NCBI RefSeq assembly: GCF_032362555.1
Contig: NC_083513.1
Span: forward strand, 7,192,001-7,256,000
Reading direction: 5' to 3'
Length of the DNA stretch: 64,000 nt
Source of the DNA: Amyelois transitella
Taxonomy: Eukaryota > Arthropoda > Insecta > Lepidoptera > Pyralidae
Each line of letters opens with the position of its first letter. The stretch's first letter is position 1. Below, piece by piece: positions 30,601 through 64,000 of this stretch. The position numbers were made by a program, and so were the translations under genes. Below the pieces are notes generated by a model. The model did not search any database. It was not told the DNA's origin and saw only the letters and a list, made by a program, of their open reading frames with translations.

Positions 30601-30992
30601 GTGTGAAATTGAGTGACCGGATAAGGAACAGCGTGATAAGGGAATGTTGTGATGTGAAAGAAGATGTAGTTACAGGAATAGAAAAGGGTATGTTGAGATG
30701 GTTCGGTCATGTGGAGAGGATGAATGAAAACAGGTTGACTAAGAAGATATACAAGGAGAGTGTGGAGGGAAAGGTCGGGGTGGGAAGACCTAGACGAACA
30801 TATCTTGATCAAATTAAGGACGTCCTGGTGAAGGGTCAGGTCAAAAGTGCCCGAAACCGCCGAGCTTGCATGAAGAGAGTTATGAATGTGGATGAAGCAA
30901 AGGAAGTATGCAGGGATCGTGGCAAGTGGAAAGAGGTAGTCTCTGCCTACCCCTCCGGGAAAGAGGCGTGAGTTTATGTATGTATGTATGTA
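27688..30992 (+). mobile_element. Nearly intact RTE-clade LINE
   Basis: A ~3.3-kb element flanked by a 14-base target-site duplication TGTTCTGGGCTTTG (27674-27687 and 30993-31006). It has a GC-rich 5' leader (27688-27860), one reading frame for endonuclease plus reverse transcriptase, a very short 3' region and a (TATG)n tail. Length, the single ORF and the simple-repeat tail fit RTE elements. The intact duplication and few defects suggest recent insertion. Confidence 0.92.
27861..30971 (+). pseudogene. LINE ORF: endonuclease + reverse transcriptase, one in-frame stop
   Basis: The frame from ATG 27861 to TGA at 30969-30971 is continuous except for a single TGA at 29229-29231 (codon 457), with ~1,036 residues in total. 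The N-terminal half is an apurinic-type endonuclease: VLCVNETK, LGDFNGWVG and GIDSDHLLV carry the Glu, Asp/Asn and Asp-His catalytic positions. The C-terminal half is a reverse transcriptase: LYKGKGSQLDCKNYRGISLL, TFVDLEKAYDRV, GVRQGCVASPWLFNL and the YADD box (30141-30152). The end, PSGKEA, is followed at once by the tail. Frames on both sides of the stop are identical, so it is a point mutation and not a frameshift. As read, it cannot make full-length protein without read-through. Confidence 0.9.
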
Positions 30993-31686
30993 TGTTCTGG
31001 GCTTTGTACAATATGCATAAACGAATATTTAACGTTTCTTAAACGTATTAATAAATTGCTATCTGAGAATCATTTGTTACTTATTTATTTAAAGAGCCTA
31101 CTCATACTTGTAATCTAGATTAAATTCTATTTTTAGATTCCTAAAACCAGTCAATCAGATCAACCGCTAACTCATTTTTTTGTTAGTCAATTACATAAGC
31201 AAAACAATGACGCGTTGATACTATGTCTCCTCGTAGATTTTATTGTCATGGGAACTTTTTGAAATCAGTACCTATATCTATTTGTAATATGAGTAAATTA
31301 GGTTAAATAAGGTTTCAGGGTTTTACAGTTTTATTATAGGTTTCCCTATCACACATTCGCATCCTGAGCTGCAAAATTTGTATACCTTACACTACATGCG
31401 TAAGAAGTGATTGTGAGGCAAAATATCAAGTGACTCTTCTCAATTTACAAACTATCGTGTCTGGGTAAAGATAATTCGGTCTAACAGCCACTGGCGATTA
31501 CGCTAAGTATGTTGGCAATCATGAAATTATTACAACGTCCGGCACTGGTACACTTACAGACAAAGGTACAAAAGCACCATAATCGGGGGGATGTGAACGA
31601 GTTGACAATACTATAATTAATTTGCGTATATAATCAAAATCACTAATTTAAGTCATGTTTTAATTTCAGATACATATGAAGCAAAC

Positions 31687-45200: not shown

Positions 45201-46919
45201 GTGCACGGCCATTAATAATATTCTCATTAATTCTTCCGTTAACTGATTTTGCGATAGAGGGACTATCAGGCAACCACAAGGCAATGGTCAGCCGAAATGG
45301 ATGCAGGGATTTTTGGGATTACAGGGTAGCATTCATTGGATCAATACAAATCTAAAGAAATAATGAAATCTAGACACAGATGGACACTTGAACGAATGAA
45401 GTGAAAATAAGAAGAAATATTATGTCATTTATGTCATCTACTCGTACTAATTAAAAAATTAATCTCCTTTAAAAAAAAGAAGTGAAAGAAAAATAAACAA
45501 CAAAGATATTGAATGTAAACACTTATGAATTGTCTTTTAAAGAAATACATAATTATTTGTGATAAATACCTACCTAAAGTTATTCACTCTTTATGACAAC
45601 TGTTAATTAATATTGCTTTTTCTTTCATGACTATAAATTAATTAAAAAATTTATATTAATTAAAAAGTCGCATCAACATTATCTTTATTTCAGTACCTTA
45701 AGAACTATTAGAATATAAGTATGAATGTTATTGAAGAAAGTTTTTTCAACTAAGTATTTGATAAAACTTTGCACATTTTGTAGGGAATCTGGTACGTCCT
45801 GATGTGAACACCTCTTTATTACACACTATATAAATAGTAAATTCAAACTTACGCGCAAATGTTGGTTGTTGAGGAACCCCAGGATACGCAGGGTAAGCAT
45901 ACGCTGGAGGCGGGGCTGATGGTGCGGCTCCAGCTAACCCTGGGTACGACATCGCACTAATTGGAGGCTGACCCATAGGTTGACCAGGAACTTGACCGGG
46001 TTGCATGCCATATGGACTAAAACCAATTGGGTAAGGGGCTCCAGGGACAGGCGCTCCTTGAGGTGGAAGCCCAGGGTACATCTGACCTGGTGGAGGGTAA
46101 TACCCTGGTTGGTTGTTGAAAGGATCTGAAATTGATAGGGAAATCTAGTGTAGCTTTTTCTGGTGAGTCATCACAACCGCAATTGTTATCTTCATCTTTT
46201 TAGATACGATACTAGGAATAATCTCAGTTCTGTAATACATAATTATTTTACTAGATATATTTACCAACAAAGGTCTATTTTTATAATTACAAATGGACTA
46301 CGATTTGAACCTTGAATAAGAAAATCGTCACGACATTAAATTTTCCAACGATTAAGCAAAGCGAAACTCTTAGTGAAACTATGTACATAGGCAAGCATCA
46401 ACTGTGTTGACATAGGTACCTACTTCAATTATTTACTGATATTAGAAATACCTACCCGTCGTTTGAAAACATTTTCAAACTTTAATTTCTAAATAAACGT
46501 CGACAACAAATTAGTGAAAGAAACATTATTTTCAAGAATTTATTAAATAAAGATTGTTAATTTATTTAAGTTAATAACACAAACTATAGTTAAAAAATCT
46601 TGGCCATTAACTAAAAACAATATAATAACGCTGTTGTGTTTTTGGTTCTATAATTTCGTTTTTATATCTACCTGCATGTGAATAGCATACAACATTTTTT
46701 TCATAATTAAGTATATAAGTTATCACGACTTTTCACAAATACATAGGTTCTATATTAATTACTATAACTTCAGTAGATAAGAATGACATTGGACAATTAA
46801 AACTAATTTTACCGAGTTTGCATTCGCAGTGTTAAGAAACCGGAACGAAAACTATAGTTTTTAGACACTGCAATTACTTAAAAATATAATTAAAAGAAGT
46901 TGTACTTACATCCAGACAT
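42214..46919 (-). CDS. DM9-repeat protein with Pro/Gly/Tyr-rich head
   Basis: Five exons read leftward: 46919-46910, 46125-45853, 43931-43720, 43305-43156, 42300-42214 (stop 42216-42214); 732 nt, 243 residues, all GT-AG and in phase. The first exon codes only MSG plus one base. Residues ~4-94 are low-complexity and rich in Pro, Gly, Tyr and Gln (NNQPGYYPPPGQMYPG, PPPAYAYPAYPGVPQQ). Two DM9 repeats follow: VEWVPSTNTT... DRAVVAGYEGHDGSPLWVIR... GDLIPGKLAI... AYVAWGGKEN, then VKWVESRDGHVPPNAV... GEPLYVGRAKQQGSLTPGK... LYISFAGQEIPHSVYEVL. DM9 modules occur in insect and mollusc proteins linked to carbohydrate recognition and immunity. There is no signal peptide, so a cytosolic location is likely. 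The ligand is unknown. Confidence 0.9.
44480..44660 (+). mobile_element. SINE, decayed, in DM9 intron
   Basis: TGTGGTTCCCGGCACCAATA, CATGGATGACGTAAAAGGCG and CGCAAGGGTTATAGATGTGA. The 3' third is partly deleted. Confidence 0.7.
44969..45209 (-). mobile_element. SINE, reverse, with target-site duplication and extended head
   Basis: Flanked by CATTAATAAT at 44959-44968 and 45210-45219. Read in the sense direction the head includes GCCGTGCACGGCAGTGCCGT ahead of GTGGTTCCCGGCACC, longer than in other copies. It lies in DM9 intron 2. Confidence 0.8.
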
Positions 46920-49079: not shown

Positions 49080-49200
49080 TGGGATGAAAAGTATCCGATG
49101 TCCTTCTCCAGACTTCTTATAAGGAGTCTTACATATACCCATTTCAAGATAATTGGTTTCATAGATAACGCGTGAAAAGACAACAAACTAATATACTTAC
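49080..49200 (-). repeat. Interspersed repeat related to 3170-3290
   Basis: TCCGATGTCCTTCTCCAGAC and GATAACGCGTGAAAAGACAA match the repeat in the GST intron. On the minus strand it directly follows the transmembrane exon of the leftmost microprotein gene and supplies its stop codon. Confidence 0.5.
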
Positions 49201-49989
49201 TGTCCCATTTGTACGAGCACGATACGGTAGTATGTGGTGGGAAGCAACAAAAACTAATGCAGATAGGATGGCCACAAAAATTATTAACGCAATAAGTTGG
49301 ACGCAGGAATTGCATAAACAACTAAAGAGAAAAATACATGAATTAAATGTAGGTACATACATTCGTCACGTCTCTCTCCCTCATGGGGTAAACAAAACCA
49401 ACAATCTCGGGAAGACTATAAGGTACGCTCTGTCATCCAGGCTTAATGATGACATTGAAATTCGGTTCTATTAACGTTACCTAATTCCAGTTACTGCCTT
49501 CCTGGGACAGAGCCTTGGGTGCGCCTATCACCTTGATCCAGGACAGGGTAAGTCATGTTCTTCATAAATTACATAAGACAACATAAATCAAGATTGTTGG
49601 GTTAATTATTTTTTGTGAATTCTCTTAGAAGTCATTTACGACATCCACAAGAAAAATATAGCGATGGTATTCTGAGGTGCAGTTTACCAAGACAACTCAC
49701 TGATTTTTTTGCTTTATTTAAGAAGGCTTGGACGACGAATTCAATTTAAATAGGCACAAGATTCACTCTTGTTACCTGTTGTAATAGTTGCAAGGGAAAT
49801 TATAAACAAAAAAAAAAACAAACATCTACCATTCGAAAAAGACGTTATTATAAATGTGGGAAATTGAGGTAGGTACCTATATTATAAATCTTCTCCAATT
49901 ATTAATGGATTTTTCTGCGAAACTCTGGTTGTGCAATTTTAAATTTCAGGAACTCAGGCATGAAAAATCTACGAGAAAACTTACCACAT
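49159..49989 (-). CDS. Array microprotein 1: Met-Cys plus one transmembrane helix
   Basis: Exon 1 is the five bases 49989-49985 (ATGTG) before donor GTAAG; exon 2 runs 49321-49159 after acceptor 49323-49322. TG joins T to give Cys, so the protein begins M-C-C-L-C-N-S-C and is 55 residues. The helix is QLIALIIFVAILSALVFVA, followed by HHILPYRARTNGT. The last 13 residues (VSILVCCLFTRYL) come from an inserted repeat, and a GTAAGT donor lies exactly at that border (49200-49199), so the original gene may have spliced onward. A TATAAATA sequence (50018-50011) lies 29 bases before the ATG. Promoter, start exon and helix exon are paralogous to the gene at 52990-53695. No known family recognised. Confidence 0.55.
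49352..49470 (-). mobile_element. SINE remnant in intron of array gene 1
   Basis: GTACATACATTCGTCACGTC, ATGGGGTAAACAAAACCAAC and GGCTTAATGATGACATTGAA follow the reverse SINE consensus with heavy decay. Confidence 0.55.
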
Positions 49990-50560
49990 TGTAATAACAC
50001 AAGCTAAACTTATTTATACTTTAATTACCCAATTAATTGTCATTAACTTTATAAACTTATTTATGTGTTCGCTTATTGTAAATATTTTCTTTAAGAGAGT
50101 TTCAAAAGAAATATTGTTCTTTGAGGTTCTCCTCTTTTCATTTCAATGACAATGACATGATTGGAGATTTCAATTCAAGAGTTTCAAATTATTTTAACAA
50201 GTGGAAACTCTAAGGTTGCGAACAACTCTTGCACCTATGGTCAGTTCTTAGTTTTTATTTTTTTATTTTATCTTGCTGTAGGTGGTTTCAACACAAAGCA
50301 ATATTTAGGAAGGATTAATGTTATACCAATAAGTATACAAGAGAAGTTTATACATCATTAAATTATTGTCCCGAGTTATAAACATTAAATTCTCTTTACT
50401 TTGTAAGGGTATAAATGCATCTGATTTAAATTAAAAAAAAAAAAAGTTTATGAAAAGAAAAGCAGTTTAGTTTATACAAACGTTAACGCTTTAGGAAACA
50501 AGAACCACTATAGGTCTATCACAGAAAGAGTACAGCATTCTTTAAATTGGGTTTAAGAAG
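49900..50560. repeat. Segmental duplication, left copy (partner 53600-54545)
   Basis: Shares TTTCAAAAGAAATATT, CTTTGAGGTTCT, CAATGACAATGACATGATTG, AGTTTATGAAAAGAAAA and AAGAGTACAGCATT in the same order with 53600-54545. It includes the start exon and promoter of array gene 1. It lacks the SINE present in the right copy. Confidence 0.85.
50011..50018 (-). promoter_or_regulatory. TATA box of array gene 1
   Basis: TATAAATA on the minus strand, 29 bases before the ATG at 49989. This spacing puts the transcription start close to the start codon. In the paralogue at 53.7 kb the same site has drifted to TAAATAAATAAG. Confidence 0.4.
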
Positions 50561-50672
50561 TAGGCAAGAAAAGGTATGGGTACTGGAAAGTCTCAACCAT
50601 TAAAAGGTGCAACAAAATCATTTTATTTTAACAACATAAACGCAGCGCTTTAAAATACTGCTTATATTTCAC

Positions 50673-50775
50673 TTATATTAAACCAAATATCCATAACGCA
50701 ATTAAGATTATAATTAGAACAACAAGTAAAAGGAAGTAAAAACAGAATAGTCGCCCAAGAAGATTACACATGACA
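50673..50775 (-). CDS. Array microprotein exon without a visible start exon
   Basis: After acceptor TTTTCAG (AG 50777-50776) the exon starts with one base, then 33 codons and TAA (50675-50673). It reads VMCNLLGRLF then FLLLVVLIIILIALWIF and GLI. The entry phase is the same as all other array exons. The region to its right has no ATGTG|GTRAG exon. A similar ATGTG near 50952 is followed by GATAGG and belongs to a LINE remnant. It is either an orphan exon or one served by a distant start exon. Confidence 0.4.
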
Positions 50776-50936
50776 CTGAAAAGAAAAATATACAATTTAG
50801 TTTTACAAACTACAGTTCTCATTCTCTCATATTTGCTTGCCCTAGTTTTTTAAACAGATTTTCTTAATCAGGCTGTCTCATATTATTAAATTTCTAGATT
50901 TTCTTAAGCTGACTACCATTTGAAAATTACATAAAT

Positions 50937-51010
50937 TTCACGCCTCCTATCCACATCTTTTTGCTACGATTCCTGCATACTTCTTTCGCTTCATACTCTC
51001 TTTATGCAAG
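50937..51010 (-). mobile_element. RTE LINE 3'-end remnant
   Basis: TTCACGCCTCCTATCCACAT and ATTCCTGCATACTTCTTTCG match the reverse complement of the 3' coding end of the LINE. Confidence 0.6.
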
Positions 51011-52177
51011 GGATTAATTAATTCCCATAGAACTTCTTCACGGCCCAGGATATAGTTGGGCCACCGAGCAGACGAAGTGAGGAAAGGTATCTCCTGAGCC
51101 TACCGCACCACTTGCTCAGAATGAAATCCTCTCTTTCTGAGCAAGAATAAGGGTATGTATTTTCTAAAAACACTTTTCGCATGATTTCGTTTTTTTAATA
51201 AGCTATCCTATGAGGTATTTTTACCTACACTGATTGGAATATAATTTACCTTAAAATTACGATTACCTATTTAAGTTTATTTCAGATATTTTCTCTGTGT
51301 AAATCTGTATTATGATGATGTTGTCAATAGAATGACGGTTGCATGGCTTGGGTTTGCTTTTTTGCTTTTTTTCTTATAGTTTAGACAATGAGAAAGCTCA
51401 GAAAACGTTCTTTCAACTTCCAAAATCCCTTTTTAAAGTTGTCTAAAGCGATTATAGAAGGAAATATCCACTCGGAACATTTATTTTTTATATTTCTTTT
51501 TTATTGTTTTGTAAACAATTAATTGGCCATAATCAAAAAACAACCGAAAGTGATAACTTTCATAAAAGTAGAAACTAAATTGACTAACAAGATTTTTTTC
51601 TTTCTTTCTAACATATTATAAACGCTCAGTAAAAACTTGGATTAAATGTTTGTATGAAACATTCGGCTTTTAGGTCTTTATTTTCAGGTCATGCGAACAT
51701 CACTAGATCAATTTTGAATAGTACTAGTGATGAAAATGATTATCAGCAGTTCCATAATGGAACTGTACCTTGGTACTTATGTCAAAGAACGGTTACTCTT
51801 ATCTCTCAAAACGGAAAAAATAAATAATTCAAAAGGGTGTCGATTCGTGTAAAATCTGGTCCACTAGTCCCAATGAGTTGTCCCATGATAGGACTAGAAT
51901 CTAATTTACATACTCCAGAATTCGTAGTCGCACACAGACTCTATGGATAATATGAGGATACAACCCGGAGTAACCAGTCATAAAGACGAATGAGTTCAGG
52001 TATATTCTAATCACCATTGCAGACGCTCCGAGGAAGGTATTTTACATGAAAAAATAGAATAAGCCATTCCTATTAAAAAGCATTGTTTTGACTTAACTAA
52101 TACATTTAGAAGTTCCGCTATCATACAAAGTACACGAAAACTTTATCACCGAGCTTACTATCGAATGCCATTCTTCT
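51011..52177. other. Array spacer
   Basis: 51720-51770 (TACTAGTGATGAAAATGATT, GTTCCATAATGGAACTGTA) is repeated at 54562-54610, marking the duplicated segment. 51840-52030 looks like a decayed tRNA-SINE body. No further array exon is found. Confidence 0.5.
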
Positions 52178-52227
52178 TTATAAAAGCTCTTGTTGGAGCA
52201 TTTTGTTCATCAATTTTGATGAAGTAT
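52178..52227 (-). pseudogene. Possible orphan tail exon of an array gene
   Basis: Acceptor TTTTTTACAG, then AT, fifteen codons (TSSKLMNKMLQQELL) and TAA. The layout (2 bases + 15 codons + stop = 50 nt) equals the tail exon at 56298-56347. No helix exon with a fitting donor is evident in front of it. Confidence 0.25.
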
Positions 52228-52493
52228 CTGTAAAAAAATAATATTAAAATAATTACAAGCATGTGTAGTACATTGAGTTTCAATCAATAAAAAATTATTC
52301 AAATCTCTTGCGTTACTGAGACAACATATAGCCGAAACTTCTGAGTGTAGGAAGCTAAAATTATTTGGGTAGTGAAAAAGAGGAGTAACATTCCAAAATT
52401 CACGCGGAAACAGGATTAGTATACTGAGAATTGAGATGAGTTTCACGCGGGCGAAGTCGTATGATCTAAAATAAAAAATTGTAATATCGCATA

Positions 52494-52660
52494 CGTACAT
52501 ACATATCACGTCTATATCCCTGGCAGGGTTCTTAGAGCCAACAGTTCTGAAAAGGATGATAGGCCACGTTCACCTAGTTGGCTTAATGATAGAATTGAGT
52601 ATCAAATAGTGACATACTGCCAGCCCATTACCTAAAAGAAGAATCTTAAGTTTATGAGCA
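52494..52660 (-). mobile_element. SINE 3' part, reverse
   Basis: CGTACATACATATCACGTCT, ATATCCCTGGCAGGG and GGCCACGTTCACCTAGTTGG. The 5' half is lost. Confidence 0.65.
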
Positions 52661-52669
52661 TATACTAAA

Positions 52670-52745
52670 TGTATAATATCACAGATCGACGAAAGCCCTC
52701 TGATTAAAGTACTGTATGGAATTTTTACAGTATTAAGTTTATCAG
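52670..52745. repeat. Duplication marker paired with 56036-56107
   Basis: TAATATCACAGATCGACGAA and AAAGTACTGTATGGAATTTT correspond to TAATATTACAGACCGACAAC and AAAGTACTGTATGGAAGTTT at 56036-56107, showing the duplicated segment extends this far. Confidence 0.75.
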
Positions 52746-52989
52746 TGAGTCAGAAAGAAGAAAGAAAGTAATATAGATCTCGAAAATATAATTTTTAGTT
52801 GACAAACACAGCATCCTTGTAAATATTTGTTAGTATATGTTTTTAATCCTTTTAAAATTTACAAAATATCCAAATTACTTTATTTCAAGAAAATCACTAG
52901 AATAATCTTAAAAATAGTTCTATCGCATATAACTTACCGTTGTACTTACTTGCGGTTTAATACTACGCGTATAGTATTATTAAATAATT

Positions 52990-53695
52990 TCATTCGTAAA
53001 TTATTATATATGTACCATAAACTAATACAACTATGATGAATAAACAAATTAATAACGCAATCAGTTGGCAGCAGCAATTGTATAAACAACTAAAAAGAAA
53101 CACAATTATATTTTTTATGTATCTACATAGGTACATACATTTTGTCACGGCTTAACAACATACACACATATAGTCACATCTATGCCCCTTGCGGGGTAGA
53201 CAAAGCCTTGAGAAGACAGGTAGGTTACGTAGGTACAGCTTTTTGGCTTGATGATAGAATTGACATTCAAATAGTGACAGGTTGCTAGCACATCGCCTTA
53301 AAGAAGAATCAAATGCTTTGCCCATCCCTTTTATGACATTCATGGCATAGAGAAGGAGGGTTTCTATTCTTTTTTTTAGTTCAGGGAACCTGGAATTGGA
53401 ATTAAAAAATAACAAGTTTCTAGCCCATTGCCTTAAATAATCCCGAGTTTATTCGCCTTTTCTTGATATGCAATCTGCACGAGGCTTGGGGCAGTTTCTC
53501 TAAACCTCGTATTTTAATAACTGCAGGCGAGATAAAAAATAATAAATTCAAACTTCGATCAATCAAAAATAGGTTCTTTTAAAATGAGGGTTTGGGTACT
53601 TTGGTACTTTTACACTTCTCCAGCGAAACTCTAGTACAATTTTGCATTTCAGGAATTAAGGCATAAAAGTCTATAAGGTGAATAACTAACCACAT
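52990..53695 (-). CDS. Array microprotein 2: Met-Cys plus one transmembrane helix
   Basis: Start exon 53695-53691 (ATGTG, donor GTTAGT) and exon 2 53089-52990 (TGA 52992-52990); 34 residues beginning M-C-C-L-Y-N-C-C-C. The helix is QLIALLICLFIIVVLVYGTY and the end is IIIYE. The first residues align with array gene 1 (CLYNCCCQLIAL against CLCNSCVQLIAL), as do start exon and upstream DNA, so the two are duplicates. The intron holds a decayed SINE. A second SINE sits 0.3 kb upstream of the start, which may affect its promoter. Confidence 0.52.
53155..53400 (-). mobile_element. SINE, decayed, reverse
   Basis: ACACACATATAGTCACATCT, CCCTTGCGGGGTAGACAAAG and AAATAGTGACAGGTTGCTAG. It lies in the intron of array gene 2. 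Confidence 0.7.
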
Positions 53696-54545
53696 TGTAA
53701 TTACACAAGCTTACACTTATTTATTTACTTTTTTTGACAACTACTTTATAATATTATTTATGTTCACTTATAGCAATTAGGTATAATAATATATTTTTTG
53801 AATGTGGGAACTGTTAAGTTTCAAAAGAAATATTTTTCTTTGAGGTTCTTCACTTTTTATTTCATTGACAATGACATGATTGGGATTTTAACCACAAATT
53901 CAATTCTTAATTCTTCGACGTCAAACGTGAGTTCAACTTCAAAGCAATATTCGTGGAGGATTTATGTAATGCAAATAAGTATATGCCGTGTGGTTCCCGG
54001 CACGAATAGAAAAAAGAATAGGACCACTCCCATCTCTTTCCCATGGATGTTGTAAAAGGCGACTAAGGGGTAGGCTTATAAACTTGGGATTCTCTTAGGC
54101 GATGGGCTAGCAACCTGTCACTATTTGAATCTCAATTCCATGTTAAAGCCAAACAGCTGAACGTGGCCTATTAGTCTTTACAAGACTGTTGGCTCTGTCT
54201 ACCCCGCAAGGGATATAGACGTGATTATATGTATGTATGTATGTATGATGTAAATAAGTATACAAAGGAAGCGCAGACTTAAGAACATTACACAAAAGAC
54301 GCAATAAAAATCATACACTAGATACATATGTATATCATTGACATTAAATTCTCTTAAATTTATATAGTTAAGTGTATGCTGTCTTAAATTATCGAAAAAT
54401 TTAAGTTTATGAAAAGAAAATCAGTTTAGTTTATGCGATAGTTTACGCGTTAGTAAACAACAAGTAACAAAAGCTACTTAAGTCTACAGTCGTATACACA
54501 CAGCAAGAGTACAGCATTATTGAAACTAGTTTTAAGAAGTAGGCA
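53600..54545. repeat. Segmental duplication, right copy (partner 49900-50560)
   Basis: Same order of blocks as the left copy, enlarged by a 264-bp SINE. It then joins directly to sequence matching 51720-51770, so the counterpart of ~50560-51720, including the orphan helix exon, is missing here. Confidence 0.85.
53984..54247 (+). mobile_element. Reference copy of the SINE, with target-site duplication
   Basis: 264 bp from TGCCGTGTGGTTCCCGGCAC to the (TATG)n tail. Flanked by ATGCAAATAAGTATA (53969-53983) and ATGTAAATAAGTATA (54248-54262). The left segmental copy has a single related site near 50330 and no SINE. Few substitutions against other copies suggest a young insertion. Confidence 0.93.
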
Positions 54546-54941
54546 AAAACGTGTCGGTAATTTACTAGTGATGAAAATTATTACCAATAGTTCCATCATG
54601 GAACTGTACTATGGTACTAGTGTGAACGAATGGTTTTCTCCATCTTTCATAAGAAAAGGCAACCGAACTGTAAAAAGTTTAAACAAATAGAAATTTCAAA
54701 TAACAGTACAATTTTTTGAAAATGTTACGCTATTTGGGACTTTTTTGGATACAACATTCTGAAAATTCAACTTTTTGCAAACTCGAAATTTTAGGAATTA
54801 AGCTTTAACATCAACTTTATGCTGCTAAATAAAAAAGACCTTTTCCTATAGTCTTCCACAAATTGTTCATGTCTCTCGTCTATTGATAGAGAGCCATAAA
54901 AAAGCTGACAAAAACCAAAGTGGATAATATGATCACTACGT

Positions 54942-55126
54942 TACATACATACATATAATCACGTCTATTTCGCTTGCTGGGCAGATAGAGCCGACAATCT
55001 TGAAATGACTGATAGAATCGAGAATCTAATAGTGACAGGTTGCTAGCTCGTCACCAAAAAGAAGAATCCCAAGTCTATAAGCCCTTAGTCGCTTTTTACG
55101 ACATCCTTGGGAAAGAGAGGGAGTGG
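54942..55126 (-). mobile_element. SINE, decayed, reverse
   Basis: ACATACATACATATAATCAC, TTGAAATGACTGATAGAATC and CATCCTTGGGAAAGAG. The head is lost and there are internal deletions. Confidence 0.7.
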
Positions 55127-55364
55127 TCGCGACGTTACAAAAATAAAATAAAAGACGCATATGGGACCAAACATTTAATAAGTTATGAGACATATAAATA
55201 ATTATACTACACGAATCAAATACAATATTTATCTTTTAAAGTTATTTTAATTCCTAAGGTTACTTCATAGTATCACAATTTTTATAAGTTAATATTTTAG
55301 AACATAATAAAAAGTAGACAAGGGTTAAAATTGTACAAATAAGAGCTAGCTCTTAATTATAACA

Positions 55365-56212
55365 TCAACGGAATAACCAACCGTAAAGCCATGTAGTTAT
55401 GAATATTATCCCTACGACGAAACACGCCACTATGCTGAATACCAGGAAAATTCCTTCGCAACTGAAAAGAGAAATACATACATATAATCACATCTTAGTG
55501 ATATTGAAAGAGGAATGCGAGCCTTTATGAGCAGTCAGAAGTTGTCCAAAAAGGCTCGCTTGGCAGTGCACAACACTAATGTATGGGAGTGAAAGTTGGG
55601 TGCGGCAGAAAAAGCATGAAAGTAGAATAAACGCGGTGGAAATAAGAGCGCTTAGGAGTATTATAGGTATAATTTTAAGTGACAGCTTGAGGAATATAAT
55701 AGGGAATGCTTTGATGGTTTGTTCAGGTCAAAAATACACGAAATTGATAAGATTGCATGAAGGGTGTTATAATTGTCAATGAAGTGAAAGAAGTATGCAG
55801 GGACCTCAGCAAATGGAAAAATTATGTAGTTTCTGCCTACCTTCCGGGAAAGAGGCGTGATTAATTTATGTATGTAATCACGTTTATATCCTTTGCGGGG
55901 TAGACAGAGCCAACGATTTTGAAAAGATCGATAGCTTTCGTTCAGGTGCTTGACTTAATAATAGAATTAAGATTCAAATAGTGACAGGTTTCTGGCCTAT
56001 CGCCCAAAAGAAGAATCCCAAATTTATAAGCCTATAATATTAATAATATTACAGACCGACAACCCTTTGATCAAAGTACTGTATGGAAGTTTTCCAGTAT
56101 TAGATTCCATAATTAGACCTTTTTCTTGGCATTTCCACAAAGTTTAATTATGATTTAGAAATTCTTATCCAAATATTTCATAAATAATCGCATATTTTAT
56201 TACTTACCACAT
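55365..56212 (-). CDS. Array microprotein 3: Met-Cys plus one transmembrane helix
   Basis: Start exon 56212-56208 (ATGTG, donor GTAAGT) and exon 2 55461-55365 (TGA 55367-55365); 33 residues starting M-C-C-E-G-I-F-L-V. The helix is FLVFSIVACFVVGIIFITTW, ending LYGWLFR. Exon 2 is 97 nt, the same as in the inverted gene at 57817-58290, with related residues. No Met occurs in exon 2, so the start exon is needed. The intron contains a LINE fragment and a SINE fragment. Confidence 0.52.
55497..55868 (+). mobile_element. RTE LINE 3' fragment
   Basis: GAGCAGTCAGAAGTTGTCCA, TGTATGGGAGTGAAAGTTGG and TACCTTCCGGGAAAGAGGCG match 30446-30975 of the intact LINE with internal deletions and a stop. Confidence 0.85.
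55873..56036 (-). mobile_element. SINE 3' part, reverse
   Basis: Shares its tail with the LINE fragment before it: TTTATGTATGTAATCACGTT, then CCTTTGCGGGGTAGACAGAG. It ends within the SINE body. Confidence 0.7.
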
Positions 56213-56297
56213 AAAAATAAAAATTATATTTTCACAGATGAGTATGAGTACTAAGTTAGCTATAATGGCTATACTGACTTAGCTATAGCTCCTGATA

Positions 56298-57163
56298 CTA
56301 AATCCAATCATTGCCATACTCCTGGTTTCTGTGTAGTTGGTCATAATCTGCGTTTTCTATAAATACAAACAAACATAATTGATATTTGGTTAACATGTCA
56401 CTTAAAAGAGAAATAACTACAATAATTTTGGAAATATCAGTTAAAATCACGGTTCTTGCAAATACAAGCAATGAACCATTATCTTATGAATTCCCAGCAT
56501 ACAAAATCGTTTCGCTCAAATCCCGTAGGATTTCAATTCACTGCGCATGACTGACTACTAGACTACAAAAAAAGTGATTAAATAGGAAATTGTAATGCAA
56601 TAGAAGCAAAGCATATACTCGAAGTAGTGCGAAACAGTGCTTGCTCCTCTAAATATGCCTGACCATGACTGCTGTGACAAAAGCATACGTAACAGAAAAA
56701 TAAATCTTCTTAGGTAACTAACAAATCGTTGTTAAGTAAAACTTACAGCTAAATATGAAACCAAAAAACCAGCCGACAAGCGCTGCCAATCCGATCACGA
56801 ACCCAAAGCAGCACACACATGCCATGAAAACTGCCCAACTAAAAGAAAATCAATTAATTAACAAATAGGTAGGGCAAAATTAAAAATAAGCTGAGACGCG
56901 CTTGGAAAAATTTCATGCAACGTAAATAAGAAAGAATTAACAGTAGAGAATGCAACAAGCATTAGACGAGAGAGAAAAAGCATGCAGTTATATTGTGATT
57001 TAAAGAGAGAGCGCTTCTTAGTCACAAGACGTCGGTTGGGTTCCCTGAACAGGTCATGATGGCATAGTTTTTAATATAATTCTACTAGCGTTAGACCCGG
57101 TATTGACTTCAATATTCAACCGTTTTATAAACTACTTTGTCTCTTAAATAACTCTTACCACAT
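56298..57163 (-). CDS. Array microprotein 4: Met-Cys, transmembrane helix and short tail exon
   Basis: Start exon 57163-57159 (ATGTG, donor GTAAGAG), helix exon 56838-56747 (donor GTAAGT), tail exon 56347-56298 (TAG). The sum is 147 nt, 48 residues: M-C, WAVFMACVCC, FGFVIGLAALVGWFFGFIFS, then YYDQLHRNQEYGNDWI. If the upstream acceptor at 56358-56357 is used instead, a stop follows at once and the protein ends FIFS. The helix exon aligns without gaps to that of the plus-strand gene (AVF.A..C.....V.G......WF). Two Cys pairs near the membrane face could be lipidated (inference). Confidence 0.5.
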
Positions 57164-57432
57164 TTCATCAAAATCTTACTGTCGAACATTCGGTACATTG
57201 TTCTAATTGCAATTCGATAGAAAAGCTTAAAATGATTAAATATTCAAACTGCATATTCAACATAAAAATACGTATGTATTAAATTTATGTAAAAGTAACG
57301 ACAATCATCATCATCAATGGACATCAAATCACTAATTGTCATTGCTTTTTTGTCATTCCAATTGTCATTCCGATTAAATAACTTGTTATAAAGTTTTATA
57401 TAGCTACTCCTTTGTGCTTCTTTAGTTTTCTT

Positions 57433-57526
57433 CAGCTTCTTCTTTATTGGGGAGCGTTAGGATTTTATCTGACACATTTTGCATCTTTAACTGAGATCCA
57501 GATGCGGGGCCGGGAGAATTTTTAAT
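57433..57526 (-). other. Protein-like orphan frame
   Basis: On the minus strand an open frame NSPGPASGSQLK then MQNVSDKILTLPNKEEAEEN ends at TAA. The composition is more like a C-terminal tail than chance AT-rich sequence. No acceptor fits well upstream, so it may be a decayed exon. Confidence 0.2.
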
Positions 57527-57786
57527 TTAGTAGATTATCAGGAGGTAACTACATTCTTTTATAGGTACCCGCCATAAATACCTAAACCTATGAGGGATAG
57601 TTTATTTTTAAAGGCGTCTATTTACAGTTGTCACCATTGGCTCTGTCACCATGACGTGGTGATAGAACTACAAATAACTAACCTATCGAGTTTGAAGTAT
57701 ACGATACAATCATAAAACTATATTAAATATGATTTAAAGTAAATATTAAGTGGACATGTATTTGTAGAGTGTTAAATTATGATTAA

Positions 57787-57795
57787 TATATAAAG
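57787..57795 (+). promoter_or_regulatory. TATA box of the inverted array gene
   Basis: TATATAAAG, 28-30 bases before the ATG at 57817. The spacing matches array gene 1 and points to a transcription start at or just before the start codon. Confidence 0.4.
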
Positions 57796-57816
57796 AAAGT
57801 AAATAAAAGAAAACCA

Positions 57817-58290
57817 ATGTGGTAAGTTGGGGTTGAAATAGAAAACTACAGAATTTAGGGAAAAGAATAGGTACTTCCTTACATCGACGACTTTACATAA
57901 AAATAGTGATGAAGGTGAATAAAGAATTTAGGGATGGGAATCGTGGCAAGTAAAAAGATGTCTTCTCTTTCGGGAAAGAGGCGTGATAATAAAATATTGT
58001 ACATTTATTTGATCATACTTTTTTTTAGAATGAATAATTATGATCCAAGCTGAGTCACAATTCCCATGTTAAAAAAGTCTCTCAGAGACGCAACGGGGTG
58101 AAACCTTAAATATATATCTAAAGAAATAAAACCAATACATACCTAATTATATTATCTACAATCATCATCAATTATTTTTGTTTTCATTTACAGTGCAGCA
58201 GTTTTTACGGCTGTATTTTGTATCTCTGCTCTAGTAACAGGAGCGTACATAGCTATGAAATGGTTCTGGAATTGGTTAACAAATGCGTAA
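57817..58290 (+). CDS. Array microprotein 5, inverted orientation
   Basis: Start exon 57817-57821 (CCAATGTG, donor GTAAGT) and exon 2 58194-58290 (acceptor TTTACAG, TAA 58288-58290); 33 residues: M-C-A-A-V-F-T-A, helix VFCISALVTGAYIAM, ending KWFWNWLTNA. It is the only member on the plus strand, yet has the same five-base start exon, splice phase and exon-2 length as array gene 3. A LINE remnant lies in its intron. This independent pairing on the other strand is the best internal support for the two-exon model. Confidence 0.55.
57905..57990 (+). mobile_element. RTE LINE 3' remnant
   Basis: GGGAATCGTGGCAAGTAAAA and TCTTTCGGGAAAGAGGCGTG match the last ~80 bases of the LINE. Confidence 0.6.
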
Positions 58291-58329
58291 TTTAACTTTA
58301 CTAAGTTCACATAAAGGTATACAGGAGTA

Positions 58330-58450
58330 CCTGACACCGTCGAGTTTGAATGAGCATGAACATAGTTGTAAATGTGAAACCAAAATGAAGCTGCATACTT
58401 GTTCTAATCGTGGCAAGTGGAAACTTATAGTTTTATGTGTGTATGTACAA
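58330..58450 (+). mobile_element. RTE LINE 3' remnant
   Basis: TGCATACTTGTTCTAATCGT and GGCAAGTGGAAACTTATAG resemble the LINE near 30905-30945. Weak copy. Confidence 0.45.
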
Positions 58451-58490
58451 TCCTATAAAAGAAGCACAGTAAGATCATAACTTCCTAACT

Positions 58491-58747
58491 ACATACATAC
58501 ATATGGTCACGTCTATATCCCATGCGGGGTAGACAGAGCCAACATTCGTGAAGACTAAATGGCCACGTTCAGCTATTTGGCTTAATGATAGAATTGAGAT
58601 TAAAATAGTGACAGGTTGCTAGCCCATCGCCTAAAAAGAATCCCAAGTTCGTAAGCCTATCCCTTAGTCGCCTTTTACGACATCCATGGGAAAGAGATGG
58701 AGTGGTCCTATTCCTTTTTTGTATTGGTGCCGGGATACACACGGCTC
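58491..58747 (-). mobile_element. SINE, full length, reverse, with target-site duplication
   Basis: Flanked by AACTTCCTAACT at 58479-58490 and 58748-58759. Tail, body and head (GGTGCCGGGATACACACGGC) are all present. Confidence 0.9.
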
Positions 58748-58759
58748 AACTTCCTAACT

Positions 58760-60116
58760 AATTTAAGATTATTCTACATATAAAAGGACCATGAGTAAAA
58801 ACATATGTGTAACATATATTTCAGGAAATAGGTGATGAATATAAAGCCTTTGACAAAGAAGATCACATCTACTTTATTTACCCTAAGGATATTTATAATT
58901 CTGTTAGTGATGTCATAACACTTATGTAAAATAAACTTACTTACGTTTGTCCTTTGCTTTTAATTATTTTACAATTATTTTTGAACACTTCTCTTTTTTA
59001 AAATTTTCAGATATCATTCTTCTGCTCGGTAACATACTTATGTTTCTGCCCTGGGAGTGCCCATAACTAGATATTATTCGTAAAAAGAAAGTATGCTATT
59101 TGTGACAATGAATGTAACAAATTATTTTAACAACATTGACATGTCAGTAAATGTGGGTTCAGGCGCAGGCTTTAGTTCCTATTTTTAAATGCTGTCTATC
59201 ATCTTATAGCTGTTAGTGCCAGTAATAAAAAAAACAAAGGGTAGCAGACATATTAATGTTCAACAATTAAGAGAAATAATATCTTTTACGACATTCTTTG
59301 TAATTAGATTCAAATGTTGTTTCTACGGGATCATATTGCACCTAATTTAAGAATCAAACGCAAAATGAAGGTTGGCCATTAGAAAAATGGGCTCTATGGC
59401 CTTAACGAGTCCACACTACTGTGGACTCATCTGATAACGCTATGGTGAAAAGACGTATCAAATCACACCAAATCAAAATTCGAGGGTATCCAAATTTCCA
59501 CACTAGGTGCTATAATGGATAATGCAACACCGTCTAGTGGTAAATTATTCTTAGTCATATTAATATAAAGAAAACAGTGGATGTTAAATGTATTTCCATG
59601 CTAGTATGTCTTGTAGTACTAGTAGTAGTAGGGTCTTGTTAGTTTTATAACAAGCTCTTTAGATAAACTTTGAGTAAAAAAATTAAAAGGTATATTTTTA
59701 AATGTTAATTAATTTTATTACCATGATCAAGTTGAATCAAGTTATATTATATTATTGCAATTAATAGTAATTACCATTCTTTCTTTCCTACATTTATCAT
59801 TCTAATTAATAACTAGATTTTGCTCGCCTATGTTTGAAGTCCAGATTAGCTATATAGCCAGATTTTTATGACATTTCTACCCACATGCTTATCCTTGCAT
59901 TACAAACAGACTATAATAATTTACGAAATAGTTCGCAAAGAAACCATCAATTAGTTAAAATATACTCAAATATAAAATATAATTCTATAATTCAAGTCTA
60001 GATACTTAAGCGTAGTTCAAATAATATTGTTGTTTATCATATTTTATTTATCTTCTGAGCATATTTGTAACTTTTATTTCACAGCCTTATTTTCTGCGAA
60101 TATAAACAGGAACTAG
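58760..60116. other. Stretch without recognised genes
   Basis: AT-rich, no array exon found on either strand. An acceptor-like TTTTCAG near 59010 is followed by a short frame, but no partner is visible. Confidence 0.4.
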
Positions 60117-60313
60117 TCATAACGTGTACCTAAATGTAGGGTACTTATATTTTTCATATATATCCTGAAAATAAATTAGAAAAAAGTGATACATAAGTGT
60201 ATAATAAAAGTTTCCATCTGGCTGGAAATTCCCTCTCCGCTTCTTCTGGGGTACAGAGTTTCCCGTGACGGAGTTGGCATTATTTGAAATTGTCTTTGGG
60301 GTGGGTACCCCAT
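60117..60313 (-). other. Candidate tail exon of array microprotein 6
   Basis: A protein-like frame after an AAG acceptor (60315-60314): AT, then GVPTPKTISNNANSVTG and NSVPQKKRRGNFQPDGNF, ending TGA at 60119-60117. Its phase fits the donor at 60714-60713. The polypyrimidine tract is poor, so this is weak. Confidence 0.25.
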
Positions 60314-60466
60314 CTTGTTAATCAGATTGTGGTCAAACGTCAATTTTTTTTTGTATAGTAGTACAACACGCAATACGCTTGTTTTATTAATTCATTATAT
60401 ATAAAGAATTGATGAAACAGTAATACATTATTAGTACAATTAATAAAACAGGGATAGTTCCTATGT

Positions 60467-60660
60467 GCTTTCCTTCCCATATATATTGTAAAAGTCAATC
60501 AAGGGAAATGCTTATAAACTTGGCGTTCTTATTTAAGGCGATGGGAAAGATACCTGCCACTATTTGAGTCTCAATTCCATCAATAAAGCCATACAGCTGA
60601 ATGTGGCCATGAGGTCTTTTTGAAATTGTTGGCTCTATCTACCCCCTACGGGATATATAT
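60467..60660 (+). mobile_element. SINE, decayed
   Basis: TTCCCATATATATTGTAAAA, TATAAACTTGGCGTTCTTAT and TTGTTGGCTCTATCTACCCC. Head and tail are lost. Confidence 0.65.
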
Positions 60661-60714
60661 TCTATTGAATTGATACATGTTGGTCTTATCTACGAAAATG
60701 AAAGATACACTTAC

Positions 60715-61339
60715 ATTTTTTTGTTGCAAAATACGAGATAATTATTATGAGTACTACGAACACTATGATTATACCAATGATGCGCAAACCCCAGCAAATG
60801 CTGTAAAAAAAAATAGACGACAAACGATAAGAACGTTAGAAAAAGGAGACTGCTTGTTGTTCTATGGCAAGAAAAGGCACTGTTTGAGGTTGCATGTATC
60901 ACATTTTGATTACATAATTCTTCTATCAATTGGATTATCCTTTTAAGCGTTGGGCTAGCAACTAACACTATTTGTTAATTTCGTAATTAAGATATACAGC
61001 TGAACGAACCTTTTATTTTTTCGAGATTGTTGGCTCTATTTACCACGTAAAGGTAAGGCCCTGATTTTACGTAATTAACTTTCATCCGGAAGATTGAGGT
61101 CAAAGACACTTAAACATTGACAAAAGGAAAAGGATAAAAAGATTAAATTATTTTGTTACTTTACAATTTATGGATTTAAGAGTTTCACTCACCTAGTAAC
61201 GGGGAAAAAACTAAATGCATCGAAATAGTAAGTACTTACGTACTTTAAAGTTTGCTGGCTTAAAACATTGAGTGTAAGTATTGTAGATTAATACAATACA
61301 GATTTGAATAAAACACTGCTTCTTCATTACTTACCACAT
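60715..61339 (-). CDS. Array microprotein 6: Met-Cys plus one transmembrane helix
   Basis: Start exon 61339-61335 (ACAATGTG, donor GTAAGT) and helix exon 60800-60715 (acceptor TTTTACAG, donor GTAAGT). TG+C gives Cys; the protein begins M-C-I-C-W-G-L-R, with helix IIGIIIVFVVLIIIISYFAT and KK. It may splice to 60313-60117 for a ~60-residue basic tail, or read through the donor to end CKCIFHFRR at 60686. The helix exon has no Met, so the start exon is required. Confidence 0.5.
60937..61056 (+). mobile_element. SINE fragment, strongly decayed
   Basis: TTAAGCGTTGGGCTAGCAAC, ACAGCTGAACGAACC and GATTGTTGGCTCTATTTACC. It lies in the intron of array gene 6. Confidence 0.5.
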
Positions 61340-63117
61340 TGTCTTAGTATACCTTAATACATCATCATATTTATCATATTAAGTTATTCAGTTTCAAAAT
61401 TATCAAGAGAAATAACTGAGATAAATATATATTTTAGTCCGGTCTCAGTTCCTATAATTATGGTCTCAGTAGATTTTTTATACATCACAGTGACAGACCA
61501 GTGTGACAATGACAAAATATCTAAGAAATTGGAGAGATTTGAAAGGAACAATTTTCAACCTCAGTATACGGTAAACGTGTATTAAAGAGGTAATTCAGAT
61601 CATTCATACCAAGGAATTTTTCAGACCTAGAGAATTCCGAAATATTGTGAAGTAGAAGTGAATACTGACAAGTGAAGGTAGGGAATTTATATAAGCTACT
61701 TCCTAAATGCTTTTTGGCTATTACACTTGTCTTAATTTAGACTAATCCGAGTCTTCAACCCTCAAACATTAAATAAACCCTTTCCTAATACCCAATAAAA
61801 AATATGTAAGTTTTTATATTAAAAAAAAACGAATAAATTGGAGTTTCTTGCTCATACATACATCTTTTCCCTTTCGGGGTAGACATAGTGTTGGCTATAC
61901 AGGCTCAACAGACTTTTTGATATCATATCTAAATTATTCTTTTATGATAATAAATTGGCATAGAAGCACGTTGAATGTTTGAAATAAACAACAAACTTAT
62001 AGTTAAATTACATTTATTTTTGGTTGGGAACAACATATGTAAGTAATTAATTACAATATTAATGTAAAAAATCTCATAGAATATAGCGTCCTCAATATAT
62101 AATTGTATCAAATTCTTGATGAATGTATATGAATATATACATGATCAAAAATATCGATATGAGAATATATTTTATATTCTAAGAGTAATTTATTTGAATG
62201 GTCAAGTTCAGTAGCTATAAAACTTCGAGCCAATATTAGTCCACAATTTTTTTTTGCTCTATCAGTCCCATGACATTATATTTACAAAACTGTGTAGAAA
62301 ATAATACCGTATTTATGCCTATAAGAGTTATACATAATAAAATATCTTTTTTCATTATATATACACATATTATGATAATTCATAAATATTTATATAAATT
62401 CATATGAAAAAGTATTCATCTTAGTATTTAAATAAATTAAGTTCTTAAGTGTTGTAAATGTACGTAACGTAAAAAATGAGGTTAGCATTATATGGAAAAA
62501 CTGACGATAAAACATTTTTCATTTTATAAAAAATGTTATATGTGAAGTTTTCCATTTACGCATAAATTACTTAAAGCTTAATAGGTATGTGCGTATCAAA
62601 GAAAATATATTATGTAAAGTCGTGTATACACCGGGCCAAAGAACGTTAGCGTTTGATTTTCGAATGTAGGCTTTGGCGTCCGGCAAAACATCAAAACAGG
62701 ACACATAAAGATTAGCGAACACTACTGCTTTGTCATTGTTGGTTCGATTTGTACACATCTTATAAATTATGATTCTCATCCCAGATGTCTTAGACCTAAG
62801 GGTCAGACGTAAATTTACGGAACTTTTCCGGGATCGTAGTCATATGCGGAGGATGATGATGATTAAAGACAAGATGATAGATTTAAGCCTCAAATACTAT
62901 TATTTTGAGCGTGCAAACGGATTATTAGTTCTTATTCTAGTATTATGAACAATATTTTTTTTGTGTTTTCTCGCTAGCAACCTTATCGGCATAGCTTGTA
63001 AGAGTGAGAAACACAGTGTACTGTTTCATTTTGGTGAACTGAAGTGAATGAGGTAACAGGATCTGATTTCTTCATTTAGGCTTAATGCATTTGAGGCTTT
63101 GTTAAATTTAACTAAGT
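61340..63117. other. Upstream region of array gene 6 and spacer
   Basis: A SINE 3' remnant lies at 61853-61900 (TTCGGGGTAGACATAGTGTT). On the minus strand near 62620-62760 a GC-richer block ends in TTGGCCCGGTGTATAC, resembling a miniature DNA transposon end; unproven. No array exon is seen. Confidence 0.4.
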
Positions 63118-63711
63118 CTATGTAGTCCCAAAGTGTTTGAGTCCAGCTCCGGTGACGTCGTTCAAAAATCTCTGGTTTCCTGAAATAAGATAAGTAAAGA
63201 AACAAATTATCAAATTATCCTATATTCCATAATGCTTAATTTAGAATTCTGTTTTTGAACGGAGAAAAATTTAAACTGAAAATAAATGAAGACTGAACTG
63301 AACTTCATGAACCTCCTGACATCAGTTCCGGCGGGTAAGTCGGGGTTTTACACGAACTGACTCCTATTTTCGCTCCGCAACTTAGCAGACAAAACCTAGC
63401 TATATTGGGTCCTGGTAAAAATCCATTTACAGGTTAACGCAGGCTATTATCCCTCACCATAAGAGCAACAGTTAGCAATCAAACTAATGCACGTAAGGCA
63501 GAATAGAGTCATTCACACGTGGCCGAGTTAGTATTGGGATCTACTAGTGTTTAGTACAAAATTATTTTACTAGTACGTACCGGTGGTGGTCGCGGGGTCG
63601 TCATTGTTGAACAAAACTCCTACTCCCCATAGAATGAGGAGAACCACTGCCACTATGAACAACAGTGATACTAGGAAACTAAGTATTTTGCATATTAAAC
63701 TGCACACACAA
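63118..63711 (-). CDS. Array microprotein 7 (start exon off the window)
   Basis: Helix exon 63711-63581 (acceptor TTTTCCAG, donor GTACGT) and tail exon 63179-63118 (acceptor TTATTTCAG, TAG 63120-63118) join in phase. The visible part is 63 residues: CVCSLICKILSFLVSLLF, continuing IVAVVLLILWGVGVLF, then the acidic NNDDPATTT and GNQRFLNDVTGAGLKHFGTT. Entry phase is the same as all other array helix exons, so a TG-ending start exon to the right of 63979 is expected. It is the longest member and has the clearest hydrophilic tail. Confidence 0.5.
63295..63545 (-). mobile_element. tRNA-derived SINE, reverse, decayed
   Basis: GTAAGTCGGGGTTTTACACG, AACTGACTCCTATTTTCGCT, AATCAAACTAATGCACGTAA and GTGGCCGAGTTAGTATTGGG follow the family body toward the tRNA-like head. 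It lies between the helix and tail exons of array gene 7. Confidence 0.55.
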
Positions 63712-64000
63712 CTGGAAAAGAAAGTTTTTATACATTAATGAAGTTTAAAAGTTCAATCTCTTTGATAAATTGGCCTAAACTGGCAGAACATTGTTTTTTA
63801 TATTCTCCTATATTTATACTTCTATTATCTACACTTGGCGTCTTTCAAGCGTTGTACTCGTACTACGACTAGTACTCTTTTGTGTTTGCTTCGAAAGTTC
63901 AAACGGAAGTGTTGAGAAACAAAATGATAGTTATTTTTGTAACTTGACTTCCTTCTGTCGTAAACAGTGTCAATTTTAACTTATGATGAAATTGTAAGTA

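Follow-up and report, generated by a model that had tools for sequence, protein, structure and literature searches.

Organization of the array

The analysed window, a stretch of 64,000 nucleotides from Amyelois transitella, carries toward its end an array of what are probably small moth protein-coding genes, at least seven and probably eight in number, labelled here a to h. In seven of them, exon 1 would hold the first five coding bases (ATGTG) at its end and be followed by a phase-2 intron of 0.3-1.9 kb, while exon 2 would supply at least one Cys near its start and one long hydrophobic helix. All six exon pairs proposed in an earlier sequence-only reading of this DNA were present at their positions. 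Gene a (minus strand) has the coding part of exon 1, ATGTG/GTAAG (the slash marks the splice donor), at 49985..49989 and an exon 2 reading MCCLCNSCVQLIALIIFVAILSALVFVASHHILPYRARTNGT up to a GTAAG donor in phase 0 at 49201..49321; its unspliced reading runs to 55 aa. Gene b (minus strand), a duplicate of gene a, has ATGTG with the non-consensus donor GTTAG at 53691..53695 and reads MCCLYNCCCQLIALLICLFIIVVLVYGTYIIIYE to a stop codon at 52990..53089. Gene c (minus strand) combines ATGTG/GTAAG at 56208..56212 with an exon 2 encoding MCCEGIFLVFSIVACFVVGIIFITTWLYGWLFR to a stop at 55365..55461. Genes d and e are arranged head to head: d (minus strand) has ATGTG/GTAAG at 57159..57163 and an exon 2 at 56747..56838, running to a GTAAG donor in phase 1 (unspliced reading MCWAVFMACVCCFGFVIGLAALVGWFFGFIFSCKFYLTTIC to a stop), and e (plus strand) has ATGTG/GTAAG at 57817..57821 and an exon 2 reading MCAAVFTAVFCISALVTGAYIAMKWFWNWLTNA to a stop at 58194..58290. 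Gene f (minus strand) has ATGTG/GTAAG at 61335..61339 and MCICWGLRIIGIIIVFVVLIIIISYFATKKCKCIFHFRR to a stop at 60686..60800, with a possible GTAAG donor after 60715.

For gene g (minus strand), exon 2 at 63581..63711 encodes MCCVCSLICKILSFLVSLLFIVAVVLLILWGVGVLFNNDDPATTT + G, and its ATGTG/GTAAG exon 1 lies outside the window at window coordinates 65615-65619. A candidate exon 3, ending in GNQRFLNDVTGAGLKHFGTT and a stop, is located at 63118..63179 behind the acceptor ttacttatcttatttcag, where the tail expected from Spodoptera homologues could be encoded. The helix exon h (minus strand, 50673..50775) reads (M)CVMCNLLGRLFCFYFLLLVVLIIILIALWIFGLI to a stop if entered in phase 2, and no ATGTG/GT partner was found for it.

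The last bases of exon 1 are 49985, 53691, 56208, 57159 and 61335 on the minus strand and 57821 on the plus strand, 57817 being the A of the gene e ATG, and the acceptors open the second exons at 49321, 53089, 55461, 56838, 60800 and 58194. Five of the six donors are GTAAG, that at 53691 (gene b) being GTTAG. Splicing would create TGT at the joined codon in five of the six pairs and TGC in that of 60800 (gene f), in agreement with the proposed Met-Cys start. Likewise, the claim of at least eight helix exons entered one base before a full codon was borne out, since eight are open if entered in phase 2 (those of the six pairs, 63711 and 50775). For seven of these eight, an ATGTG/GT exon of their own lies 0.3-1.9 kb upstream in the same orientation. 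As spliced by hand, the products measure about 33-65 aa, against the roughly 33-60 residues first proposed.

The description of the genes as two-exon genes holds for the split start and the location of the helix in exon 2, but the homologues of gene g have a tail past exon 2, for which there is a candidate exon at 63179-63118; gene g therefore probably consists of three exons, the third adding a polar tail. Its donor is at 63581, and a possible acceptor opens a short frame at 63179; similarity in the tail is weak and six other acceptors are listed. GTAAG donors at or just past the helix are also found in the exons opening at 49321 (a), 56838 (d) and 60800 (f), and therefore further members may have three exons; the candidate lists for a third exon of a, d and f held none that was convincing. 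In b, c, e and h a stop lies inside exon 2. The coding part of exon 1 is indeed five bases long, but this exon presumably also carries 5' UTR and would thus be no five-base microexon. The expectation that gene finders would miss such genes fits a-f, as far as searched, but annotations of three other species include gene g, so that gene finders sometimes succeed on it.

Frequency of the split-start signature

The string ATGTGGTAAG occurs in five copies at 49-64 kb and in none at 1-49 kb of the window, against 0.02 copies expected at 49-64 kb (order-2 Markov model, 200 simulations, maximum 1); this window count ignores the choice of pattern, because the pattern came from the same stretch. Over the 204 kb around the site, six copies of ATGTG/GTAAG were found, every one within 15.6 kb. 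The sixth, the sole addition to the other five in these 204 kb of real sequence, is situated beyond the window at window coordinate 65619 (minus strand), 1.9 kb upstream of the gene g helix exon at 63711. This match is independent of the choice of pattern. Moreover, this exon-1 partner of gene g was located after exon 2 had been called, and thus represents an out-of-sample match.

Complete units (ATGTG/GT plus a helix exon) numbered seven in 204 kb, against a mean of 0.03 and a maximum of 1 in 200 order-3 simulations, a comparison that is partly post hoc because the hydropathy cut-off of 2.0 was fixed after the weakest member (2.04) was known. The seven comprise six units in the window, including the GTTAG-donor gene b, and gene g, whose first exon falls outside it. 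A strict filter for Cys-plus-helix exons was passed by four exons in 204 kb (a, b, g and h), all in phase 2 and all in the array, with none in phases 0 and 1; c, d, e and f fail this filter. Four ORFs in 204 kb combine a Met-Cys start and a hydrophobic stretch in a single exon, h among them. A further candidate exon at 54976 was excluded from the count because, by reading of the sequence, its acceptor sits inside a dispersed repeat.

Protein properties, homologues and kinship

The 19-residue hydropathy maxima of the helix exons range from 2.04 to 3.44, and the products fit the size of single-pass microproteins, with fewer than 100 residues and one hydrophobic helix each. For the S. frugiperda homologue of gene g, AlphaFold2 predicted a helix at residues 3-36, with block pLDDT values of 95 and 91 at residues 11-30. 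In line with the earlier statement that no known family was recognised, none of seven products (a-g, g as its 48-aa unspliced reading) scored above the Pfam cut-off, the best being TrbC (E 0.0022, g) and OAD_gamma (E 0.0039, f). The S. frugiperda homologue gave three weak matches to solved structures, the best to Sec61 beta (E 0.29), and no family; in viral contigs, 177 stretches matched a pattern, none of which was confirmed as a relative. A search of the whole window against Rfam gave 0 matches.

Annotated homologues of gene g were identified in Spodoptera frugiperda (SFRURICE_001874, 63 aa), S. exigua (an unnamed protein, 63 aa) and Helicoverpa armigera (B5X24_HaOG201997, 73 aa). These entries, examined at the protein level, are labelled 'hypothetical', 'unnamed' or 'uncharacterized', without a function. 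All three start with MCC and have one helix followed by a tail that differs between genera. Gene g shares 28 of its first 30 residues with both Spodoptera proteins, positions 1-13 and 16-30 being unchanged, and has the features of the homologue family: an MCCVC-type start, Lys at 10 and a helix conserved to Trp30. At the level of its predicted protein, gene g is strongly conserved between Amyelois transitella and Spodoptera. A search with gene g and the two Spodoptera proteins yielded 14 candidates at E <= 10, including all three homologues, with E values of 2.5e-37 and 1.6e-37 for Spodoptera, both of which belonged to the query alignment, and 7.9e-16 for Helicoverpa, which did not. With a mixed query of the paralogues a-g, two gene g homologues were found among 53 candidates at E <= 1 (Spodoptera, E 1.5e-6 and 3.9e-5). 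No annotated homologue of a-f was found in the homologue searches (a-g mixed; c-f), the search with c-f giving two candidates, none at E <= 10.

Among the members, three blocks align between genes a and b, the first covering the upstream region and exon 1 (286 bp, 71%), the second exon 2 (85 bp, 80%) and the last 52 bp long; elsewhere the two are poorly alignable. The family accordingly includes at least one duplicate pair. Of 28 codons compared, 14 are changed and 13 of these 14 changes replace the residue, a replacement-rich pattern that would fit diversifying or relaxed selection, not simple constraint. After removal of Met-Cys, the number of 300 shuffles reaching the observed score was 0 for a/b, g/h and c/g, 1 for c/d, and 3 each for c/e and d/e; gene f had no detectable similarity to any other member past Met-Cys in this test. 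Between subgroups, 18 of 23 comparisons were at chance (5% level, uncorrected). Genes a, b, d, e and f are without the gene g family residues (MCCVC-type start, Lys 10, Trp30). The closest member to h is gene g, and h aligned weakly with the gene g homologue family (E 0.038 in a single comparison).

Interpretation and comparison with known systems

A chance origin would hold that AT-rich DNA gives rise to hydrophobic readings and that the ATGTG/GTAAG matches are coincidental. In its favour, 18 of the 27 candidate hydrophobic phase-2 readings fall outside the array, and the pattern was chosen on the same sequence. The signature count, the 204-kb real-sequence control, the complete-unit simulation and the annotated gene g homologues in three species stand against this explanation, which was rejected as extremely improbable and is already contradicted for gene g. 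It is rather unlikely, if more conceivable, that the array contains fewer genes, with some helix exons serving as alternative second exons, or that some are dead copies. Exon h, which has a strong acceptor and an intact reading yet no ATGTG/GT between 50775 and 53089, i.e. within 2.3 kb, would then perhaps be spliced to exon 1 of b; b and h may be pseudogenes, and the functional core may be g, perhaps with c, d, e, f and a. The GTTAG donor of b and its stop, earlier than that of a, together with the lack of a found exon 1 for h, indicate that either may be decaying. However, sharing of first exons sits poorly with the same-strand ATGTG/GT exon that seven of the eight helix exons have for themselves, and an internal ATG-TGT could start a Met-Cys product of h (possible start MCNLLGRLF...) without exon 1.

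Insect effector arrays often look like this one, with replacement-rich change and strongly hydrophobic products, and the products could be immune or gut effectors, i.e. membrane-active peptides disrupting microbes or acting in infected cells and diversified in an arms race. The array with its replacement-rich pair a/b and strongly hydrophobic products would suit this proposal, as would the STAT-like motif TTCN(3,4)GAA, found upstream of a, b and d (two each, six in total against three expected). On the other hand, reading the products by eye revealed no signal peptide preceding a distinct mature peptide, only a and f carry more than a few positive charges, no antimicrobial family was matched in Pfam, gene g is almost unchanged relative to Spodoptera, and the kappaB-like motif GGGRNYYYY lies upstream of none of the seven genes (one expected). 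We regard effectors as unlikely.

The earlier claim of an array with a split Met-Cys start and one hydrophobic helix is supported. The genes very probably form a real uncharacterised family, and there is a high probability that its products are Cys-capped single-helix microproteins inserted into membranes. Tentatively, and as the likeliest mechanism, they could be S-acylated helix-packing regulators of larger membrane proteins. The N-terminal Met-Cys-(Cys) would be S-acylated beside the membrane, the helix would be placed in a cellular membrane, and it would pack against a channel, pump, receptor or trafficking factor, which it would tune or hold. The copies would come from duplication in place, retaining hydrophobicity while altering other residues. 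A bolder and somewhat more doubtful proposal is that this split-start moth family, multiplying in place and diversifying its helices, supplies alternative regulators acting within the membrane, whose partners may be shared or may differ. It would then be the insect equivalent of the regulins, with g conserved and the other copies changing fast. The element TTGTCA occurs 10 times upstream of the genes against 1.64 expected (post hoc) and is absent from c and g; if truly shared, it would make most members co-regulated.

No paper on this family was found by title or abstract opening among the matches listed, nor by the locus names of two gene g homologues. The signature ATGTG/GTAAG with a phase-2 helix exon is simple enough to be searched for in the genome of any lepidopteran. 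For six of the eight members (a-f), the homologue searches turned up no annotated protein, and an array of split-start genes, several of fewer than 40 codons, would help to show how many short genes annotation misses, besides offering a testable set of adjoining membrane microproteins.

The moth proteins of the SFRURICE_001874 type match gene g in the MCC start, the single helix and 28 of the first 30 residues (both Spodoptera), while the homologue searches gave no annotated relative for a-f. Other insect genes, e.g. cuticular protein genes, also place an intron after a very short initial coding segment; there the intron, a few codons past the start, interrupts the signal peptide of a secreted protein. 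In contrast, the introns of the array split codon 2, and the hydrophobic part resembles a membrane segment. Sarcolamban and the regulins are helper peptides that regulate SERCA, and they share the mode of action proposed here, one helix packing on a larger membrane protein. Hemotin-type microproteins are not known to have a five-base first coding exon, a Met-Cys start or a multi-gene array. Drosophila transmembrane microproteins of this type, compared here (with Hemotin/Stannin in mind) for their mode of action, resemble the proposed array products in being small and membrane-bound, with membranes or larger partners as their targets; Hemotin itself is an 88-aa protein of the endosome (PMC11475943).

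Exon pairs and their clustering

Re-derivation of the claimed junctions by script, on both strands of the region, located all six proposed pairs of an ATGTG first coding piece and a phase-2 helix exon where the sequence-only reading had placed them, i.e. genes a, b, c, d and f (exon 2 starting at 49321, 53089, 55461, 56838 and 60800, minus strand) and gene e (58194, plus strand). The donor is ATGTG followed by GTAAG in five pairs and by GTTAG in the remaining one (53691). Every joined product starts with Met-Cys and carries a single strongly hydrophobic stretch, as had been claimed, and the proposed minimum of at least eight helix exons agrees with the eight found in the array: the six paired ones and those at 63711 (g) and 50775 (h, for which no partner was found within 2.3 kb), both on the minus strand. 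Genes d and e are oriented head to head, with 0.65 kb separating their starts.

The signature ATGTGGTAAG occurs five times in the 49-64 kb array and is absent from 1-49 kb (both strands). Order-2 simulations (200 runs) gave a mean of 0.02 and a maximum of 1 copy in 15 kb, an expectation that ignores the choice of the pattern, which the reader had drawn from the same stretch. After addition of 140 kb of flanking sequence to the window (contig C9, 7192001-7256000, of the 327-Mb genome), the 204 kb contained exactly one extra copy; it lies on the minus strand at window coordinate 65619, and the g helix exon follows 1.9 kb downstream of it. Since this exon had been called beforehand and was partnerless inside the window, the copy provides out-of-sample confirmation. 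Complete units were defined as ATGTG followed by GT[AGT]AG, with an acceptor no more than 2.5 kb away and a product of 28-85 residues whose hydropathy is at least 2.0, a cut-off set after e had been seen at 2.04. The real 204 kb contained seven of them, versus a mean of 0.03 and a maximum of 1 in 200 order-3 simulations.

Phase-2 hydrophobic exon candidates numbered 27 in the 204 kb, 18 outside the array and nine within it, namely the eight helix exons and a candidate at 54976; the latter was set aside and is not counted among the eight. With hydropathy of 2.7 and two early Cys, thresholds chosen afterwards, seven array candidates were retained (all except e and 54976) and none outside. Under a stricter Cys count, phase 2 yielded four candidates (a, b, g and h), all inside the array, while phases 0 and 1 yielded none in the 204 kb.

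Relations inside the array and neighbouring features

Genes a and b form a duplicate pair spaced by about 3.7 kb and can be aligned in a 286-bp block surrounding the start (71%), in exon 2 (80% over 85 bp) and in one 52-bp block, with little else. Fourteen of 28 codons differ, 13 of them replacing the residue; the first, second and third codon positions account for 7, 9 and 3 differences, and reading frame and hydrophobicity are preserved. This pattern does not point to strong purifying selection and fits diversifying or relaxed selection.

All 28 pairs of members were compared with Met-Cys removed, using 300 shuffles and no correction for multiple tests. The scores of a/b, g/h, c/g and b/e were matched by none of the 300 shuffles, that of c/d by one, and those of c/e and d/e by three each, which delineates the subgroups a/b, c/d/e and g/h; f resembled no other member in this test. 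Between subgroups, 18 of 23 comparisons were at chance level (uncorrected); for b/e and c/g, composition or a more distant relationship may account for the scores. The seven 300-bp stretches preceding the starts contain TTGTCA/TGACAA 10 times by a post hoc count, versus 1.64 expected: three copies for d (start 57163), two each for a (49989), b (53695) and f (61339), one for e (57817) and none for c or g. This excess is only a lead, because the motif was first picked by eye and a and b are duplicates.

By reading, copies of a dispersed repeat containing 'gcggggtagacagagcc' are scattered in both orientations through the introns and spacers between 49 and 61 kb (for example at 53140-53330, 54000-54250, 55880-56060 and 58490-58740), and gene neighbourhoods cross-match each other. 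The 54976 candidate was set aside because its acceptor, by reading, lies inside a dispersed repeat. The intron of c contains a fragment (about 55531-55782) resembling a non-LTR retrotransposon at 27786-30971 (plus strand), whose endonuclease domain was found by scan and whose second open frame reads as reverse-transcriptase-like. Adjoining the array, the region 43696-46144 (minus strand) carries a DM9-repeat exon (Pfam DM9, E 1.3e-13) and, upstream on the same strand, a Pro/Gly/Tyr-rich open frame without Pfam match. Three further features lie on the plus strand: an angiotensin-converting-enzyme-like gene at 8599-17213 (Peptidase_M2 in two of three scanned open frames), the end of which appears by reading to be the frame 16809-17213, where a hydrophobic segment and a short tail can be recognised; a Major facilitator superfamily transporter at 31621-40221 (MFS_1, E 1.1e-16, in the first large open frame; later exons assigned by reading only); and, by eye, a glutathione S-transferase-like start at 909-1211, without Pfam match at E 0.01.

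Predicted products and their putative role

The predicted products have 33-65 residues and a single predicted hydrophobic helix, and Pfam returned nothing above cut-off for the seven scanned. In the AlphaFold2 model of the Spodoptera frugiperda homologue, residues 3-36 form a helix, for which confidence is high over residues 11-30, and the tail shows a second, weak one. The Cys adjoining the membrane helix suggests that the products would be S-acylated and thereby anchored. Charges vary among members, so topology may differ too. The leading, still tentative, proposal is that the helix packs against and regulates a larger membrane protein; a putative effector role for the array products is a possible but less likely alternative.

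Homologues in other moths

In a collection of 5.8 billion protein sequences, a profile of a-g (53 candidates) identified two proteins, from S. frugiperda (E 1.5e-6) and S. exigua (E 3.9e-5), and a profile built from g and both of these brought in a third, from Helicoverpa armigera (E 7.9e-16); all three entries are gene predictions. Of the eight members, the searches covered a-g. No annotated relative of a-f was found at profile-search sensitivity (mixed a-g profile for a and b; this and one more for c-f).

The homologues of g extend beyond the helix. Together with a donor at 63581 and an acceptor and short frame of matching phase at 63179-63118, this indicates that g probably has three exons, so the description of the genes as two-exon probably does not hold for g. 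Seven acceptors are listed for g, and the tail is poorly conserved versus Spodoptera, as it is between Spodoptera and Helicoverpa.

Met-Cys, encoded by the five-base exon in the A. transitella genome, is present in all three homologues, and judging from the protein start such an exon would exist in Spodoptera and Helicoverpa. The Spodoptera proteins start with MCCVCSLICKILSLIVSLLFIVAVVLLILW and the Helicoverpa protein nearly the same, with one extra Cys; 28 of the first 30 residues of g are identical in both Spodoptera proteins.
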